In this document: positions 19,132-24,270 of the stretch, in pieces
Layout of the letters: each line of letters begins with the position of its first letter
Position numbering within the stretch: the first letter of the stretch is position 1
DNA from: Saprospiraceae bacterium
GTDB lineage: Bacteria; Bacteroidota; Bacteroidia; Chitinophagales; Saprospiraceae
Direction: 5' to 3'
Assembly (NCBI GenBank): GCA_022841505.1
Contig: JALHRK010000023.1
Coordinates: 1 to 35,624, forward strand
DNA: 35,624 nucleotides
Notes under the pieces: model-generated
Seen by the model: only the letters and a program-made list of their open reading frames with translations
Databases searched by the model: none
Told to the model about the DNA's origin: nothing
Program-made: the position numbers and the translations under genes

Positions 19132-19754
19132 TCAGGGTATTTATCATTGACGACCATCCGATGGTCATAGAAGGCATCAAATCGCTTTTGGCGCAATCTT
19201 CAGTCGCGGAAATTTGCGGCAGCGCACAAGATGGCAGCACGGCGTTGGAAGCCTTGAAATCCATAGAACCGGAAGTCGCTCTGGTGGACATCAACCTGCC
19301 GGATCTCAATGGAATTGACCTTTGCGGAATGCTCAAAAAACAATTCCCGAAAATCAAAGTACTGGGGCTCAGTACCTTCAAAGAGCGCAGTTACATCACG
19401 CGCATGATCAGTGCGGGCGCCTCCGGTTATCTATTAAAAAACGCTTCCCGCGAGGAATTGGAAGACGCCATCACCGCTGCCTGGCGGGGGCAATTGTACA
19501 TGAGTCTGGAAGCCGCGGCCATCCTCACCAAACCGGCGCCTGATACGCCCGAACTCCCCATGCTCACCGCACGAGAAAAAGAGATTCTGCTGCTAATTGC
19601 AGAAGGTTTGACGAATCAGGAAATTGCCGAAAAGCTGTTCATCAGTCCGCTAACCGTGGATAGCCACCGCAAGAACCTGCTGGCTAAATTTGGAGTAAAA
19701 AACACAGCGGCTATGGTGCGGTTTGCCATAGAATTCAAATTGATCGAATATTAG
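19128..19754 (+). CDS. NarL/LuxR-family response regulator
   Basis: 208 residues: a receiver domain with the acidic pair DD (8-9), phosphoacceptor Asp about 54 (ALVDINLPDLNG) and a conserved Lys in LLKNAS, then a LuxR-type helix-turn-helix (LTAREKEILLLIAEGLTNQE, then LFISPLTVDSHRKNLLAKFG). It is the DNA-binding partner of the TPR kinase, whose stop it overlaps by 4 nt. Its 3' end overlaps the convergent DUF2063 gene by 20 bp, so the two transcripts are antisense at their ends. Confidence 0.95.
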   Translation: MIRVFIIDDHPMVIEGIKSLLAQSSVAEICGSAQDGSTALEALKSIEPEVALVDINLPDLNGIDLCGMLKKQFPKIKVLGLSTFKERSYITRMISAGASGYLLKNASREELEDAITAAWRGQLYMSLEAAAILTKPAPDTPELPMLTAREKEILLLIAEGLTNQEIAEKLFISPLTVDSHRKNLLAKFGVKNTAAMVRFAIEFKLIEY

Positions 19755-20550
19755 CGATAAAAAAACCAGCTTCGAGCCAGGCTTTTTTCCAGTCCATCCA
19801 GGCTTCCCGTGCTTCATTTTCGGGTTTATCGTAAAGCTTAGCCGTCCAATTCAGGGCTTCCTGTACGGTACTGCCTTCCGTCATTTTCTGAAGAAAAGCG
19901 TATTGCGGTGGCAATAAATTAAAAACAGCCGTGCGAAAATCTTTCCGGACAATGGCGATAAAATGTTCCCGGGGCGATGGGATATCCGGATCCTGGTCAC
20001 CCGCCACAGCGCTGTAATAAACGTTCACCGGAAAATCGTATTTGTGGATAGAAAAACAAGGCTGTAGCTGAAGATTTTCTTCGGAATCCGATGCGGCAGC
20101 GTAAGCTTTTCCTTCGTGTCCGGGCGCGTCAAACATCGAATACAAATCCCATTCAAACTGCGCCAGATCAATCATAAAATCAATCCAGGGTTCTTTTTCG
20201 TCCGCTTCCTGATCGGGCCGGGTTTCGCGCAGAAAGGCCGGAAAGCGGGCGCCAAGCAGCGCAAGCGTAGGGCTTGATGAAGGGTATTGCCGGAGGTATT
20301 CTTTGGCGAAATCGTCGAAGAGTTCTTTACCCAGGGCATGGCACAGTGCTTTAAATTGTCCTTCCAAACACTGCAGCAGCCGGGCAACGTACCCCCGCTG
20401 GTAAATAGCCAAACGCTGGGTGGCAGACAAGGTATGGGATGGGGCAATGTGTATAACCGTTTCCTCCTGCAAGCCGGCTTGTCCCGGAAACATCAGCGCT
20501 TGTTGCATCCACGTTTGTATGGCTTCCAGATGTTTGCTGTTCGGATCCAT
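19735..20550 (-). CDS. DUF2063 / HvfC-BufC-like partner of the MNIO enzyme
   Basis: About 271 residues from the ATG at 20550 (MDPNSKHLEAIQTWMQQAL). A TTG at 20559 overlapping the previous stop is the alternative. The N-terminal domain has the marks of the DUF2063 family: LSATQRLAIYQRGYVARLLQCLEGQF, then LGKELFDDFAKEYL and SPTLALLGARFPAFL. The C-terminal part (about 150-271) would be the second, winged-helix-like portion. Such proteins are encoded beside DUF692 enzymes and are thought to present the peptide substrate to them. It lies 5 nt behind the DUF692 gene, in the same operon as the Cys-rich protein. Its 3' end overlaps the convergent response regulator by 20 bp. Confidence 0.85.
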   Translation of the reverse strand: MDPNSKHLEAIQTWMQQALMFPGQAGLQEETVIHIAPSHTLSATQRLAIYQRGYVARLLQCLEGQFKALCHALGKELFDDFAKEYLRQYPSSSPTLALLGARFPAFLRETRPDQEADEKEPWIDFMIDLAQFEWDLYSMFDAPGHEGKAYAAASDSEENLQLQPCFSIHKYDFPVNVYYSAVAGDQDPDIPSPREHFIAIVRKDFRTAVFNLLPPQYAFLQKMTEGSTVQEALNWTAKLYDKPENEAREAWMDWKKAWLEAGFFIANIRSI

Positions 20551-20555
20551 ATTGG

Positions 20556-21521
20556 TCAATTGGTAACGGTATCTTCCATGATTTGTGGCAACAAAAAGCT
20601 GATGGGCGTGGCCACACCATCGTAATTGATGGATGCAGGGTCTTCCGGTTTTGCAGCAACTGTTGCTTGCCCCATAAAATTCCGGGCTTTGTGCAATTCA
20701 GCCAGGCAAGCTTCAAACGAAGGAATATTGCCGTCCCATTCCAGCAAGGTTGAAACCCCGCCGGTTTTGTGCCAGGCTAAGCGGAACAATTCCCAAACCT
20801 CAGATACCACAGGCCGGTCGTGGGTGTCAATGATGTGGGTTCCGCAATGCTGGTGTCCGGCTAAGTGCATTTGAACAATGCTTTCCTGTGGCAAGGTTTC
20901 AATATAAGCCACCGGGTCAAGGCCGGAATTAAAACAAGTCACATAGGTATTGTTGACGTCCAGCAGCAAGCCGCATCCGGTTTCCGCAACTAAACCACTC
21001 AGGAATTCCGGTTCAGGAATTGTCGCATGCGTAAAACTGAGGTAAGTACTCGGATTTTCCAATACCAAAGGCCGTTCTAAATAATCCTGTACCACCCGAA
21101 CCCGATCCACCACATGGCGAAAAGCTTCTTCTGTGAGCGGCAACGGCAGTAAATCGTGCGTATTTGCGCCAAGCACCCCGGTCCAGCACAAATGGTCGCT
21201 GATCCATTTGGGCTGCACCTCGGCTGCAAGCTCGCGCAGGGCTTTGAGGTAGCCAAAATCTACCGGCGCGGTGCTTCCAATGGAGAGCGAAACGCCATGC
21301 ATCACCACCGGGTAGCGCTCGGCAACCTGGCGCAGGACGTGGCGGGGGCGGCCGGCTGAAAACATGAAGTTCTCCGAAATGACTTCAAACCAGTCCACCT
21401 CAGGCCAGTTCGACTGGATATAGTCAAAATGCACATGGCGCAAACCGAGTCCCAGGCCCAGGTTCGGCATGGCTGCCACCTGAGCCTGGAGCTGGGCAAT
21501 ATGGCTGCGATCGGTGCTCAT
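20556..21521 (-). CDS. DUF692 multinuclear non-haem iron oxidative enzyme (MNIO: MbnB/TglH/ChrH/HvfB-like)
   Basis: 321 residues from the ATG at 21521; a TTG at 21527 would add two residues. TIM-barrel marks with the metal ligands of the family are present: [21 protein letters not shown] (Glu about 50), HGVSLSIGS (His about 75), SDHLCWTG (Asp/His about 109-110), [37 protein letters not shown] and LLEWDGNIP. Characterised members use two or three irons to convert peptidyl cysteines (oxazolone/thioamide in methanobactin, cysteine excision in TglH, thiooxazole in bufferins). The ATG overlaps the stop of the Cys-rich protein (ATGA), so substrate and enzyme are translationally coupled. The DUF2063 partner follows. 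Reaction and exact substrate residues are inferred. Confidence 0.93.
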
Positions 21522-21988
21522 ATACAACTGCCGCCCCCGCTCATGCCGCTGGCGCCGCAGGCGTTGTAATCCGGGTTGTAATTTTTTTTGAGCCAGGCAG
21601 TTGGAGGACCAACGGGAGACGGAGATGGCCCAAAAGTCCGGCCTGACCGGTTCATCTTCTGTTCGAATATCGTTCTTGCCCGCTGCCAGACGCTTTTGCC
21701 CTGGTTGGGGCCGTCTGTGGAGAACCGTTCGGCATTGATGGGCACAGCGCAGGAGCCTTGCCAGGAACAGGGATTGTCTCCGGGGCGGTTTTGTTCTTCT
21801 GCATTACCATAAAGCCCGCAGCCGCCTTGTCCGCGACAATTGTTCAGGGTATGGCAGGAATGTTCGGCAGCAGTGGCGCAGGTTCCCATGCCCGAACATT
21901 CGTTGGTTCCAAGGCGGTCGTGCCCTTTACAGGCATTCAACCCCATACAAGCGTGCAATTCTAACGGAATATGATTTTGTGAACTCAT
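21518..21988 (-). CDS. 156-residue Cys-rich protein with five CX5C units, candidate MNIO substrate
   Basis: Eleven cysteines. Ten of them form five C-x5-C pairs (CMGLNAC, CSGMGTC, CHTLNNC, CRGQGGC and CSWQGSC share the pattern; the third and fourth units are adjoining), and a final C-x10-C ([12 protein letters not shown]) ends one residue before the stop. The pairs lie in the first 80 residues. A basic, Pro-rich middle (about 95-135, [16 protein letters not shown] and [11 protein letters not shown]) separates them from the Gly-rich Cys tail. There is no signal peptide, so if modified it would first be made in the cytoplasm. It is larger than typical RiPP precursors. Its stop overlaps the start of the DUF692 enzyme and it begins 18 nt after the ferritin-like gene. 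I know no function for this family; a metal-binding role is the alternative to being a modified precursor. Confidence 0.8.
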
Positions 21989-22006
21989 GTTGATTCATTT
22001 AATGGT

Positions 22007-23275
22007 TTAAAAACGCACAATGCCATCTGCGCCCACATTTACATCGGGCAGGACTTCGATCCGCTGAATGATATTGGGATCCAATCCCAAAGAGGCAGGA
22101 ACAGCGTTCGCCAAAGCGACTAATTCCTGTTTTGCGGAAGCCAGACTTGTAAATTGGTAATTTTCAAACGTGGGTGCTAAAACTTCCCCTGCTTTGTTGT
22201 TCAAATACAGGTAGCGCATTCCGCCCAGGATTTTATCCAAGATAAAAATCATGCCTTTGTGCATGCCGACATAAAACAGCGTGCTTTGCGCGCTACCTTT
22301 TAAAGTAAAGCTGACTTCTGTGATCAAAAGCAAATAGGAATAAACGGCATTGGCAAGATCAACTAATGGTAAAAACTGGCTTGGATAACCTGCCCGCGTT
22401 GGATTTTCAGGAAACGGATGGACAAAACAATTGAGGTCGTCCGCTTTGAATTTTTTGATCTCTTTGGCCAATTCGTTGTATTTAAACCAGTGGGAATCCT
22501 CGTCTTTTTCCGGATCATCGGCTTTATGCGTTGGATCATCGGCATACCCTTCGCCCTGATGCTGAATGATGCTGATGGCTTTTAAAGCAGATTTTTTGTC
22601 TTTAACCACCATTAATCCGCCGCTGTCTTCATTGTTGGGGTATATGGCCTGGTCGGCGCCCCTTGCCGCAGGATCGAGCGGATTTTCCGGTTGCTGAATG
22701 TAATAAGCGTCTTTCGGGTAAATCGTGTCCACATTATTGGCGGAATAGTACCCCTTTCCTGTTCCTAACTGGTGCGCTTCGTATTTAAAATCGGCGTCGG
22801 TGGTCTGTTCTACGATTAAATTCTCAATATAATCGTAAAACTGGCCGATGGTTTCCCAATTGTCGCCTTCAGGTTTAGCGCCTCTTTTCTCAGGCTTTTC
22901 AATCCCGAGAAACTTCTCTAACTGGCTGTGGGAAAGCTTCGACAATCCTACCGAAAACCCGGCCTTGTGGTGCGGCAGGTTGGTTGGATAAGCGCCCGGA
23001 GATTTGCCGTAAATTTTCGGGGCGCCCCCAAGCGATCGCATGAGGTTGCAGGCCAGCGACATGTGGAGCATTTCTTCCACCGCGACGCTCATAATCAGCC
23101 CGCCGGCCCGGTTTGCAAAAGTGGCCAATGCCTGGCCATCTTTTAGCGGATCACAGGCGCTTGGCAACCGGTTGATCGAATAATAGGTGTACAGATAAAT
23201 GGGAATGGTGCTCAATTCGATCTCCACTGCTGTCTGGAGATGGGCGAGCAGGTTCTGACGTTGGGAATCTGTCAT
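22007..23275 (-). CDS. Ferritin-like protein (PF12902, VioB/RebD-C-terminal type)
   Basis: 422 residues without a signal peptide. It opens with LLAHLQTAVEIELSTIPIYLYTYYSI and continues with VAVEEMLHMSLACNLMRSLGGAP: the E-x-x-H and preceding Glu expected for a diiron four-helix bundle. Two more helices (about 290-350, LANAVYSYLLLITEVSF, then FYVGMHKGMIFILDKILGGM) would complete the bundle. Relatives occur as domains of VioB/StaD/RebD (bisindole biosynthesis) and as stand-alone proteins near Cys-rich peptides. As first gene of the operon, 18 nt before the Cys-rich protein, it could oxidise that protein, supply iron to the MNIO enzyme or act on another substrate. A promoter-like TATATTTG lies upstream. 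Confidence 0.85.
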   Translation of the reverse strand: MTDSQRQNLLAHLQTAVEIELSTIPIYLYTYYSINRLPSACDPLKDGQALATFANRAGGLIMSVAVEEMLHMSLACNLMRSLGGAPKIYGKSPGAYPTNLPHHKAGFSVGLSKLSHSQLEKFLGIEKPEKRGAKPEGDNWETIGQFYDYIENLIVEQTTDADFKYEAHQLGTGKGYYSANNVDTIYPKDAYYIQQPENPLDPAARGADQAIYPNNEDSGGLMVVKDKKSALKAISIIQHQGEGYADDPTHKADDPEKDEDSHWFKYNELAKEIKKFKADDLNCFVHPFPENPTRAGYPSQFLPLVDLANAVYSYLLLITEVSFTLKGSAQSTLFYVGMHKGMIFILDKILGGMRYLYLNNKAGEVLAPTFENYQFTSLASAKQELVALANAVPASLGLDPNIIQRIEVLPDVNVGADGIVRF

Positions 23276-23308: not shown

Positions 23309-23316
23309 CAAATATA
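23309..23316 (-). promoter_or_regulatory. Bacteroidota-type -7 box TATATTTG of the MNIO operon
   Basis: An exact TAnnTTTG on the minus strand, 33 bases upstream of the ATG at 23275. A TTG lies about 22 bases further upstream, so both parts of the Bacteroidota promoter are present at a suitable distance. It is the only evident promoter for the four genes. Confidence 0.55.
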
Positions 23317-23372
23317 TCACAACGCCTTAATATTTATTCAAATGCTAAAATAAATCTATGTCAATTTTCAAA

Positions 23373-23427
23373 TAGTGTCTGTCTTTATAGTTCGAGAGCA
23401 GACACCCGACTAAATGGACAGACACTA
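23373..23427. repeat. Palindromic element with 11-bp ends, MITE-like family copy 3
   Basis: TAGTGTCTGTC (23373-23383) and GACAGACACTA (23417-23427) are perfect complements. The interior TTATAGTTCGAGAGCAGACA matches the ends of the element at 6384-6513. The right end supplies the stop codon (TAG on the minus strand) of the MBL gene. Confidence 0.7.
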
Positions 23428-24270
23428 AATAGTGATTGGATTTCCAATTACGATCCTGCCATGCAGCGCTTCATCGCGCACCACCGTCGCGCATCCAATT
23501 GCAGGGTCGTGTTCAAAAATGAGCCGGTGGCCGTGATCGGCTGCCTCCTTGAGGATACGGGCCTTTTCTTCTAAGGTCAGCAGTGGGCGTACATCGTATG
23601 CCATGACATAAGGCATGCCAATATGGTGGGAAGAAGGGATCACATCCGCGCAATACAGGTACGTATGCTCGTGGTCGGTGAGCATTGGCAGCATCATGGC
23701 TTCCGTGTGGCCGTATACAAAGCGGAGCGATATCCCCGGCAGCCATTCCACATCTGTGTCCGAAACAGGGATAAAACGCAGAACCCCGGCTTCCTGGAGG
23801 GGCACAAAATTTTCCTGCAAAAACGAGGCTTTTTCCCGGGCATTGGGCTGCATTGCCCAGGCGTAGTGCCGTTCATTCGACCAGTAGGTTGCTTTGGGAA
23901 AAGCGGGGACTAATTGCCCGTTTTCGTCCATTTTTACAGCACCACCGCAATGGTCGAAGTGCAGGTGTGTGAGAAAAACATCGGTAATGTCTTCCGGCGC
24001 AAACCCTTTTTTGCGCAGCGAATCCAACAGCGAAGCATCCCCATGCGGTTCGAAGTGCTTGCGGAAACGGGCGTCCTGCTTGTCGCCGATGCCGGTGTCA
24101 ATCAGGATGATCCGGCCGTTCGTTTCCACCAAAAGGCAGCGCATGGCCCAGGTGCAGAGGTTTTTATCATCGGGCGGATTGAGTTTCCCCCAAATGCTTT
24201 GCGGTACGATGCCAAACATGGCGCCGCCGTCTAATTTGAAATAACCGGTGTCTATGGTGGAAATGATCAT
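23425..24270 (-). CDS. Metallo-beta-lactamase-fold hydrolase
   Basis: 281 residues with the MBL metal motif THLHFDHCGG (about 102-111), a further His in YGHTEAM and Asp in CADVIPS, and a last His in FEHDPA: a full set for two metal ions. The N-terminus (STIDTGYFKLDGGAMFG, then WAMRCLLVETNGRIILIDTG) resembles the lactonase/quorum-quenching and general MBL hydrolase group. It is cytoplasmic, with no signal. Its stop codon lies in the terminal repeat of the palindromic element at 23373-23427, so the last residues may differ from relatives. The substrate is unknown. Confidence 0.9.
   Translation of the reverse strand: MIISTIDTGYFKLDGGAMFGIVPQSIWGKLNPPDDKNLCTWAMRCLLVETNGRIILIDTGIGDKQDARFRKHFEPHGDASLLDSLRKKGFAPEDITDVFLTHLHFDHCGGAVKMDENGQLVPAFPKATYWSNERHYAWAMQPNAREKASFLQENFVPLQEAGVLRFIPVSDTDVEWLPGISLRFVYGHTEAMMLPMLTDHEHTYLYCADVIPSSHHIGMPYVMAYDVRPLLTLEEKARILKEAADHGHRLIFEHDPAIGCATVVRDEALHGRIVIGNPITI

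Follow-up and report, generated by a model that had tools for sequence, protein, structure and literature searches.

The closest described relatives of the system reported here are the bufferins, among them bufferin-2 (BufA2/BufB/BufC; Buf_6/12Cys), whose Buf2 precursors span 51–367 residues according to the available text of PMC12452194. That text also describes a signal-less group, adjamnio-I, with precursors of 122–293 residues and 8–21 Cys encoded directly before the MNIO (its Table 2). It defines PME-type 1 partners by the DUF2063 signature PF09836, reports that signal-less precursors tend to pair with PME-type 2 partners, and presents products of MNIO–DUF2063 pairs that are mainly signal-bearing peptides. 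MNIO–PME1 clusters have been argued to install 5-thiooxazole broadly, with their products grouped as copper-associated captophorins (available text of PMC13097082). Here we analyse a four-gene cassette from a Saprospiraceae bacterium (GenBank assembly GCA_022841505.1, contig JALHRK010000023.1), in which genes for a ferritin-like protein (FER), a Cys-rich protein (CYS), an MNIO (DUF692) enzyme and a DUF2063 partner run co-directionally on the minus strand at 19735-23275 of the window, by which we mean the whole 35,624-nucleotide stretch of DNA that was analysed.

Our leading, though tentative, reading is that the cassette encodes a cytosolic two-part metalloprotein, with CYS, matured by the MNIO, as a subunit or domain of FER. 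Its basis is that the four genes are linked, the cysteines of CYS are conserved, the MNIO is of the BufB type, and FER and CYS are fused in some loci. That a strongly conserved Cys protein of the cytosol is tied to a ferritin-like one, and in some loci fused with it, points to an MNIO maturing an intracellular metalloprotein.

Linkage and distribution of the cassette

FER (22007-23275, 422 aa; PF12902, 4.6e-43) is the first gene of the cassette and a candidate diiron protein. CYS follows (21518-21988, 156 aa, 11 Cys), a candidate MNIO substrate with resemblance to BufA2, then the putative maturase, a BufB-type MNIO (20556-21521 from its ATG; MbnB_TglH_ChrH, 4.8e-104; NF050167), and the DUF2063 (PME-type 1) partner (19735-20550 from its ATG; Pfam 5.8e-19; PF09836, 68.6 bits against a cut-off of 27.2). 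With ATG starts, FER and CYS are separated by an 18-nucleotide gap, the CYS stop and the MNIO start overlap in ATGA, and 5 nucleotides lie between MNIO and DUF2063. The initial annotation of this DNA had described four co-directional genes with this spacing, in agreement with the open reading frames and ATG starts, and its assignments to PF12902, DUF692/MNIO and DUF2063 were confirmed by Pfam.

Relatives of CYS were sought in a scan of one genome per species across 84,980 species, and the best 80 of 282 candidates were analysed, their loci being searched with profiles made from the window genes. All four genes are present in 77 of the 80 loci, the other three being cut by contig ends; gene by gene, the MNIO is found at 80, FER at 79 and DUF2063 at 78, with the absent ones at contig ends. 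The order FER-CYS-MNIO-PME holds in 74/80 loci and the order CYS-MNIO-PME-FER in 3/80, all Actinomycetota. Hosts of these best 80 come from at least four phyla, among them the Bacteroidota, Pseudomonadota, Acidobacteriota and Actinomycetota. The MNIO frame is broken into two overlapping ones at one Flavobacterium locus (L062:8503-9476), through either gene decay or an error in sequencing.

Because the 80 scan loci are the closest relatives, and counts from them lean accordingly, we also examined evenly drawn genomes as a less biased, small control: 395 from the phylum, 395 from the class (both including the window's own genome, with G099, G166 and G320 also common to both) and 299 pseudomonadotal genomes including their own sample centre. 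CYS matched in 10 genomes of the phylum sample, and the seven strong matches (the own genome and six others) adjoin FER, MNIO and DUF2063; two weak matches (L009 and L010) without any cassette gene nearby were taken as chance, and the tenth, L008, is a BufA2-like gene beside an MNIO. All eight CYS matches in the class sample, four of them new relative to the phylum sample, have all partners adjacent, as do both matches in the pseudomonadotal sample, one of which is the centre itself. A co-occurrence check had been suggested at the outset; with CYS beside an MNIO in 80/80 scan loci, 7/7 strong phylum matches and 8/8 class matches, the family is not one found mostly without a DUF692 gene.

Pairwise distances of the four proteins correlate (r 0.50–0.87), and 0 of 2000 permutations gave values as high (73 full loci, thinned to 58, plus the window; L072, L036, L046 and L062 were excluded). 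These correlations, together with an MNIO tree that mixes phyla, are consistent with a cassette that moves as one block. Linkage through close kinship alone is unlikely, given the four phyla and the different gene order in the three Actinomycetota. The PF12902 domain also exists outside the cassette, since three such proteins (L118, L120 and L121) have no CYS or MNIO within the roughly 3.4 kilobases examined.

CYS as a candidate substrate of the MNIO

Five evenly spaced CX5C units had been read in CYS. The five pairs are there, among 11 Cys, and five or more arose in 21 of 200,000 shuffles (mean 0.68); the even spacing did not stand, with paired cysteines at 14, 20, 31, 37, 45, 51, 57, 74 and 80, C51 common to two pairs, and Cys144 and Cys155 outside them. 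Conservation of the cysteines, which the initial annotation had proposed to measure, is high: Cys 14, 20, 37, 45, 51, 57, 74 and 80 are invariant in 86/86 sequences, and C31, C144 and C155 are kept in 81, 83 and 81 of the 86. Residues H12, G16, L17, N18, W101 and R105 are invariant in the 46-row CYS alignment, and the protein has a conserved C-terminal region with W. (Alignments were chosen from the loci and hold 46 CYS, 39 FER, 20 MNIO and 42 DUF2063 sequences; L072, being a fusion, was excluded from those of CYS and FER.) Relatives of CYS are mostly 155–277 aa with 8–22 Cys (22 in L033), the outliers in length being L088 (324 aa) and L087 (283 aa), starts uncertain, and the fusion L072.

CYS is under purifying selection, with nonsynonymous and synonymous divergences (dN and dS) of 0.056 and 1.44 between the window and L011, the nearest among the relatives listed. 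Against L011, L019 and L018, none of the other three cassette proteins has a dN as low (CYS dS against L018 was not computable). This low dN at close range and the eight invariant cysteines are more in keeping with a functional protein than with a disposable scaffold. Conservation and dN/dS also rule out a chance Cys-rich open reading frame; for CYS, Pfam gave nothing at E<=1 and the PDB nothing better than E 0.5. Its N-terminus is not signal-like by a test of N-terminal 12-residue hydropathy, in which the best values were -0.49 to 1.36 for 46 CYS proteins vs 1.90–2.24 for nine BufA2 controls, which suggests that CYS is cytosolic.

The same conservation bears on a different role for CYS, as an unmodified, conserved metallochaperone or assembly factor that would supply metal to the MNIO and/or FER. 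Low dN among close relatives and fusion to FER (below) would suit such a role, and the conserved L11, H12, M15, N18, W101, R105 and F108 go beyond a simple precursor's needs. However, a CYS gene directly before the MNIO, an MNIO and DUF2063 partner of the bufferin-maturase type, and the BufA2 resemblance of CYS match known operons of substrate, enzyme and partner, and we consider the metallochaperone role improbable.

The window MNIO scored 346.9 bits against the MNIO_BufB model NF050167, over the cut-off of 310, and 20/20 cassette MNIOs match this model. Matches in the PDB were 3bww, the DUF692 protein 8hci and MbnB. Residues H77, H112, E157, D190, N192, H221, D234, H236 and E263 are invariant in 20/20 cassette enzymes; these His, Asp, Glu and Asn residues we take to be metal ligands. 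In a small tree the cassette enzymes fall beside five BufB2 and apart from four BufB1, on a cassette branch that is weakly supported (75/61). All 42 cassette partners scanned match PF09836 (DUF2063) at E<=0.001; a phmmer search of the PDB with the DUF2063 partner gave nothing at E 0.01. The window genome encodes a second, distant MNIO (L125, G000:C204:9543-10157; 106.5 bits, 3.9e-30).

The initial annotation had proposed the Cys-rich protein as the substrate, and it remains a strong candidate: from its place just before the MNIO, as in buf operons, and its resemblance to BufA2, CYS is very probably modified by the enzyme encoded next to it. We propose that the MNIO, guided by the DUF2063 partner, would act on CYS in the cytosol and oxidise a subset of its conserved CX5C cysteines, most likely to 5-thiooxazoles as in other MNIO–DUF2063 pairs, a prediction that draws on the argument for MNIO–PME1 clusters in the available text of PMC13097082. 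The thiooxazoles would create soft-metal sites on CYS, most likely for Cu(I).

FER, its fusions to CYS and the genomic neighbourhood

All 39 FER relatives match PF12902 at E<=0.001. The best fold match of the FER AlphaFold model (predicted local distance difference test, pLDDT, 86.9) is 3hl1 (CC_0557), with Z 25.4 and a root mean square deviation of 2.4 over 261 aligned residues; true ferritins match the model at Z about 10–11, which for helical bundles may mean just a common arrangement. Residues E20, E67, E68, H71, E242, E259 and H262 are invariant in 39/39, and E20, E68xxH71, E242 and E259xxH262 resemble a typical diiron site, which is predicted here from sequence.

In a Rhodobacter metagenome-assembled genome (MAG; L072), FER and then CYS are encoded in one 751-codon frame. 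Other single-frame fusions occur at L122/L127 (744 codons), L134 (525) and L135 (508). PF12902 lies on the N-terminal side in 4/4 fusions, and MNIO and DUF2063 follow the fused frame in all four loci. In a tree of 33 MNIOs, L134 and L135 lie close to the base among the cassette enzymes, on long branches whose place is unsure, and L072 and L122 fall in a group from Pseudomonadota. At least two changes of fusion state are required by the branches with good support, and fusions occur in at least two clades; the tree as drawn needs three changes, some of them possibly losses. The fusions strongly support the earlier suggestion that the ferritin-like gene is part of the system.

Fusion in some loci makes it probable that FER and CYS act in physical contact, either as partners or with CYS as the substrate of FER, and within the cell it is probably the ferritin-like partner that the cysteines of CYS serve. 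In the two-part metalloprotein that we favour, mature CYS would be a bound subunit of the ferritin-like diiron protein FER, in complex with it where the two are separate chains and as one of its domains in species with the fusion, and would give or take metal or electrons in an oxidation carried out by FER. The natural single chains of 508 to 751 codons make this relationship directly testable.

CYS may instead be a stand-alone cytosolic metal buffer, in effect an unexported bufferin carrying thiooxazoles made by the MNIO, with FER as a second maturation or accessory oxidase acting on CYS, or as a handler of iron or oxidants in metal stress. A BufA2-like CYS without a signal-like N-terminus and a BufB-type MNIO would be expected of such a buffer, and 32/80 loci are free-standing operons by a 200-nucleotide rule. 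If FER were a modifier, borosins, in which the modifying enzyme is fused to its precursor, would be a precedent for the fusions. However, the 25 largest flanking clusters, judged by eye with no family search, include no widespread metal-efflux or DoxX-like neighbour (a sigma-factor-like cluster flanks 3/80 loci), and FER is present in 79/80 loci, whereas the available text of PMC12452194 names other neighbours of bufferin clusters and does not contain the word ferritin. We regard the metal buffer as possible but doubtful.

Neighbouring genes bear on what FER might do. A flavin amine-oxidase-like family lies beside the cassette, upstream or downstream, at 18 Flavobacterium loci (L023 and most of L053-L073), a thiamine pyrophosphate (TPP)-decarboxylase-like family at 19, all Flavobacterium apart from one gammaproteobacterium, and an unassigned family of 284–530 aa at 16, some outside Flavobacterium; when flanking genes were clustered, no family was common to more than 19/80 loci. 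The L023 oxidase matches VioA (6.7e-23, 81.6 of the 600-bit cut-off) and PF01593, the related oxidases at the remaining 17 loci share just 22–40% identity with it over aligned pieces, and the L059 decarboxylase matches indolepyruvate decarboxylase (2e-75); all matches of these oxidase and decarboxylase families are under the curated NCBIfam cut-offs. The Flavobacterium neighbours possibly form an amino-acid oxidation pathway. Taken with the weak similarity of 15/39 FER relatives to VioB in its ferritin-like portion, these redox-enzyme neighbours suggest that FER is an enzyme. At its most specific, our proposal would extend MNIOs beyond the making of secreted metallophores: the MNIO would mature a built-in, protein-derived metal or redox cofactor of thiooxazole cysteines within a new two-component ferritin-like oxidase, of which CYS is a permanent part as subunit or domain, coupled in Flavobacterium to amino-acid oxidation; in this full form we think it unlikely.

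The same neighbours could be read as a small-molecule pathway in which CYS is a scaffold or carrier and FER, with the oxidase and decarboxylase in some hosts, builds a product on or from it, much as TglA is the scaffold for pearlins. The 18 loci with the amine-oxidase-like family, the 19 with the TPP-decarboxylase-like one and single loci with a tryptophan halogenase or a berberine-type oxidase would accord with this, but both families are confined to Flavobacterium bar the one gammaproteobacterial TPP gene, no other gene family is widely common, and CYS has eight conserved Cys, not one C-terminal residue. A scaffold role is, in our view, very improbable. Neighbours in other loci vary and include a lipase, a Dyp-type peroxidase, the halogenase and the berberine-type oxidase; in a gammaproteobacterial MAG (L036:32-4116), a TPP-enzyme-like gene and a laminin-G/flavin adenine dinucleotide (berberine-type) oxidase precede the cassette.

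Several results weigh against a two-part metalloprotein. Fusions are a minority (1/80 scan loci) and would equally fit FER as an enzyme acting on CYS. The weakest correlation of CYS distances is that with MNIO distances (r 0.50); at long range conservation is higher in the MNIO, with 55–74% identity to the window vs 49–89% for CYS, and the structure model of CYS is poor (pLDDT 61.7). At 32/80 loci no further gene in the same direction lies within 200 nucleotides on either side, which leaves FER there with no visible pathway context, and the window's sole co-directional gene within that distance encodes an MBL-fold protein. The VioA match is confined to the L023 oxidase, the one relative of it that was scanned, at L059 in another Flavobacterium, having no NCBIfam match. 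Finally, signal-less CYS pairs with a PME-type 1 partner, an exception to the correlation with PME-type 2 in the available text of PMC12452194, so recognition must differ from the published pattern.

The MBL-fold gene (23425-24270) lies 149 nucleotides upstream of the cassette in the same direction; its best NCBIfam match is the quorum-quenching lactonase YtnP (170.5 of the 425-bit cut-off), and a relative (86% identical) stands upstream of the cassette in L011 alone (1/80 loci). Between the end of this gene and FER, a perfect inverted repeat read by eye, TAGTGTCTGTC/GACAGACACTA (23373-23383 and 23417-23427), may act as a terminator or bind a regulator. The promoter-like sequence that had been noted before the operon was found again on the minus strand upstream of FER as TTG-N22-TATATTTG (23309-23341), a putative promoter by its pattern match to a Bacteroidota-type consensus.

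Comparison with described systems

The kinship with BufA2 and BufB, the FER-CYS fusions and the Flavobacterium redox-enzyme neighbours all go beyond the initial annotation. For FER, the nearest structure, 3hl1 (CC_0557) from Caulobacter, is also a profile match (1.8e-19), with 23% identity over the aligned part. Violacein biosynthesis offers a further likeness, in that the VioB model has a ferritin-like part to which FER is weakly similar (4.3e-7) and one neighbouring oxidase, that of L023, matches VioA. FER is, however, 422 aa vs 1003 for the model and reaches 28.1 of the 1250-bit cut-off, and as it matches the ferritin-like part alone it does not qualify as a VioB orthologue; we know of no Cys-rich partner or MNIO in that pathway. 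A literature search, with most subscription journals and figures outside its coverage, found no work linking MNIOs with ferritin-like proteins. The available text of PMC7907618 mentions DUF2063 and a ferritin-like protein, but in separate contexts, as Dps and a DUF2063 gene of Haemophilus.

Captophorins and related 5-thiooxazole peptides (fontiphorin, oxazolin and gonophorin; PMC13097082) share the pair of MNIO and PME1 with the cassette. Fontiphorin and oxazolin differ in carrying EGKCG repeats, and the word ferritin is absent from the available text of that paper. The initial annotation had set CYS apart from known precursors by its size and its lack of a signal peptide; neither distinction survives the 51–367 residues of Buf2 precursors or the signal-less adjamnio-I group in the available text of PMC12452194. 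Indeed, the window CYS resembles adjamnio-I in its 156 aa, its 11 Cys, its lack of a signal-like start and its gene directly before the MNIO. The major organisation of adjamnio-I has a PME-type 2 partner, whereas cassette partners are DUF2063 proteins in 42/42, and no ferritin-like gene is named for it in the available text. CYS can therefore not simply be filed as adjamnio-I, since the partner type fails, although the groups were compared by description and could overlap in sequence.

The closest comparison is with bufferin-2. The cassette keeps its order of precursor, MNIO and DUF2063, the window MNIO passes the BufB cut-off, and CYS has CX5C-type spacing and CxGxNxCKG-like motifs. We call CYS bufferin-2-like because its profile aligned with nine BufA2 sequences in hhalign at 90.8% (E 1.2e-6, 37 columns) and 39/46 CYS members match the BufA2 model NF050166 at E<=0.01. 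Spacing of the six-Cys core can be aligned by eye between CYS and BufA2 with an insertion after the second Cys, in a register that the repeats make uncertain.

BufA2 proteins in some cassette hosts have a hydrophobic N-terminus and the pattern CX5CX5CX6CX5C. Among 99 phylum genomes there was one weak BufA2 match and none over the cut-off. A BufA2-like gene in the window's phylum (L008, G192), with a signal-like start and the spacing CX5CX5CX6CX5CX5C, lies directly before an MNIO that is, at 56% identity, the BufB2-type enzyme most like that of the window. A Reyranella genome (G404) has nine BufA2 matches over the cut-off (L093, L098, L102 and L105-L110), on several contigs, besides a FER-CYS cassette.

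CYS departs from bufferin-2 in its score of 21.3 bits (E 2.2e-4), under the NF050166 cut-off of 60, and in an N-terminus that is not signal-like where BufA2 is expected to have a Sec signal peptide; with these two defining features failing, it cannot simply be filed as BufA2. It also has extra conserved Cys and a W-containing C-terminal region, and its cassette includes a ferritin-like gene in 79/80 loci. On sequence grounds, CYS would thus be bufferin-2-like rather than a bufferin.

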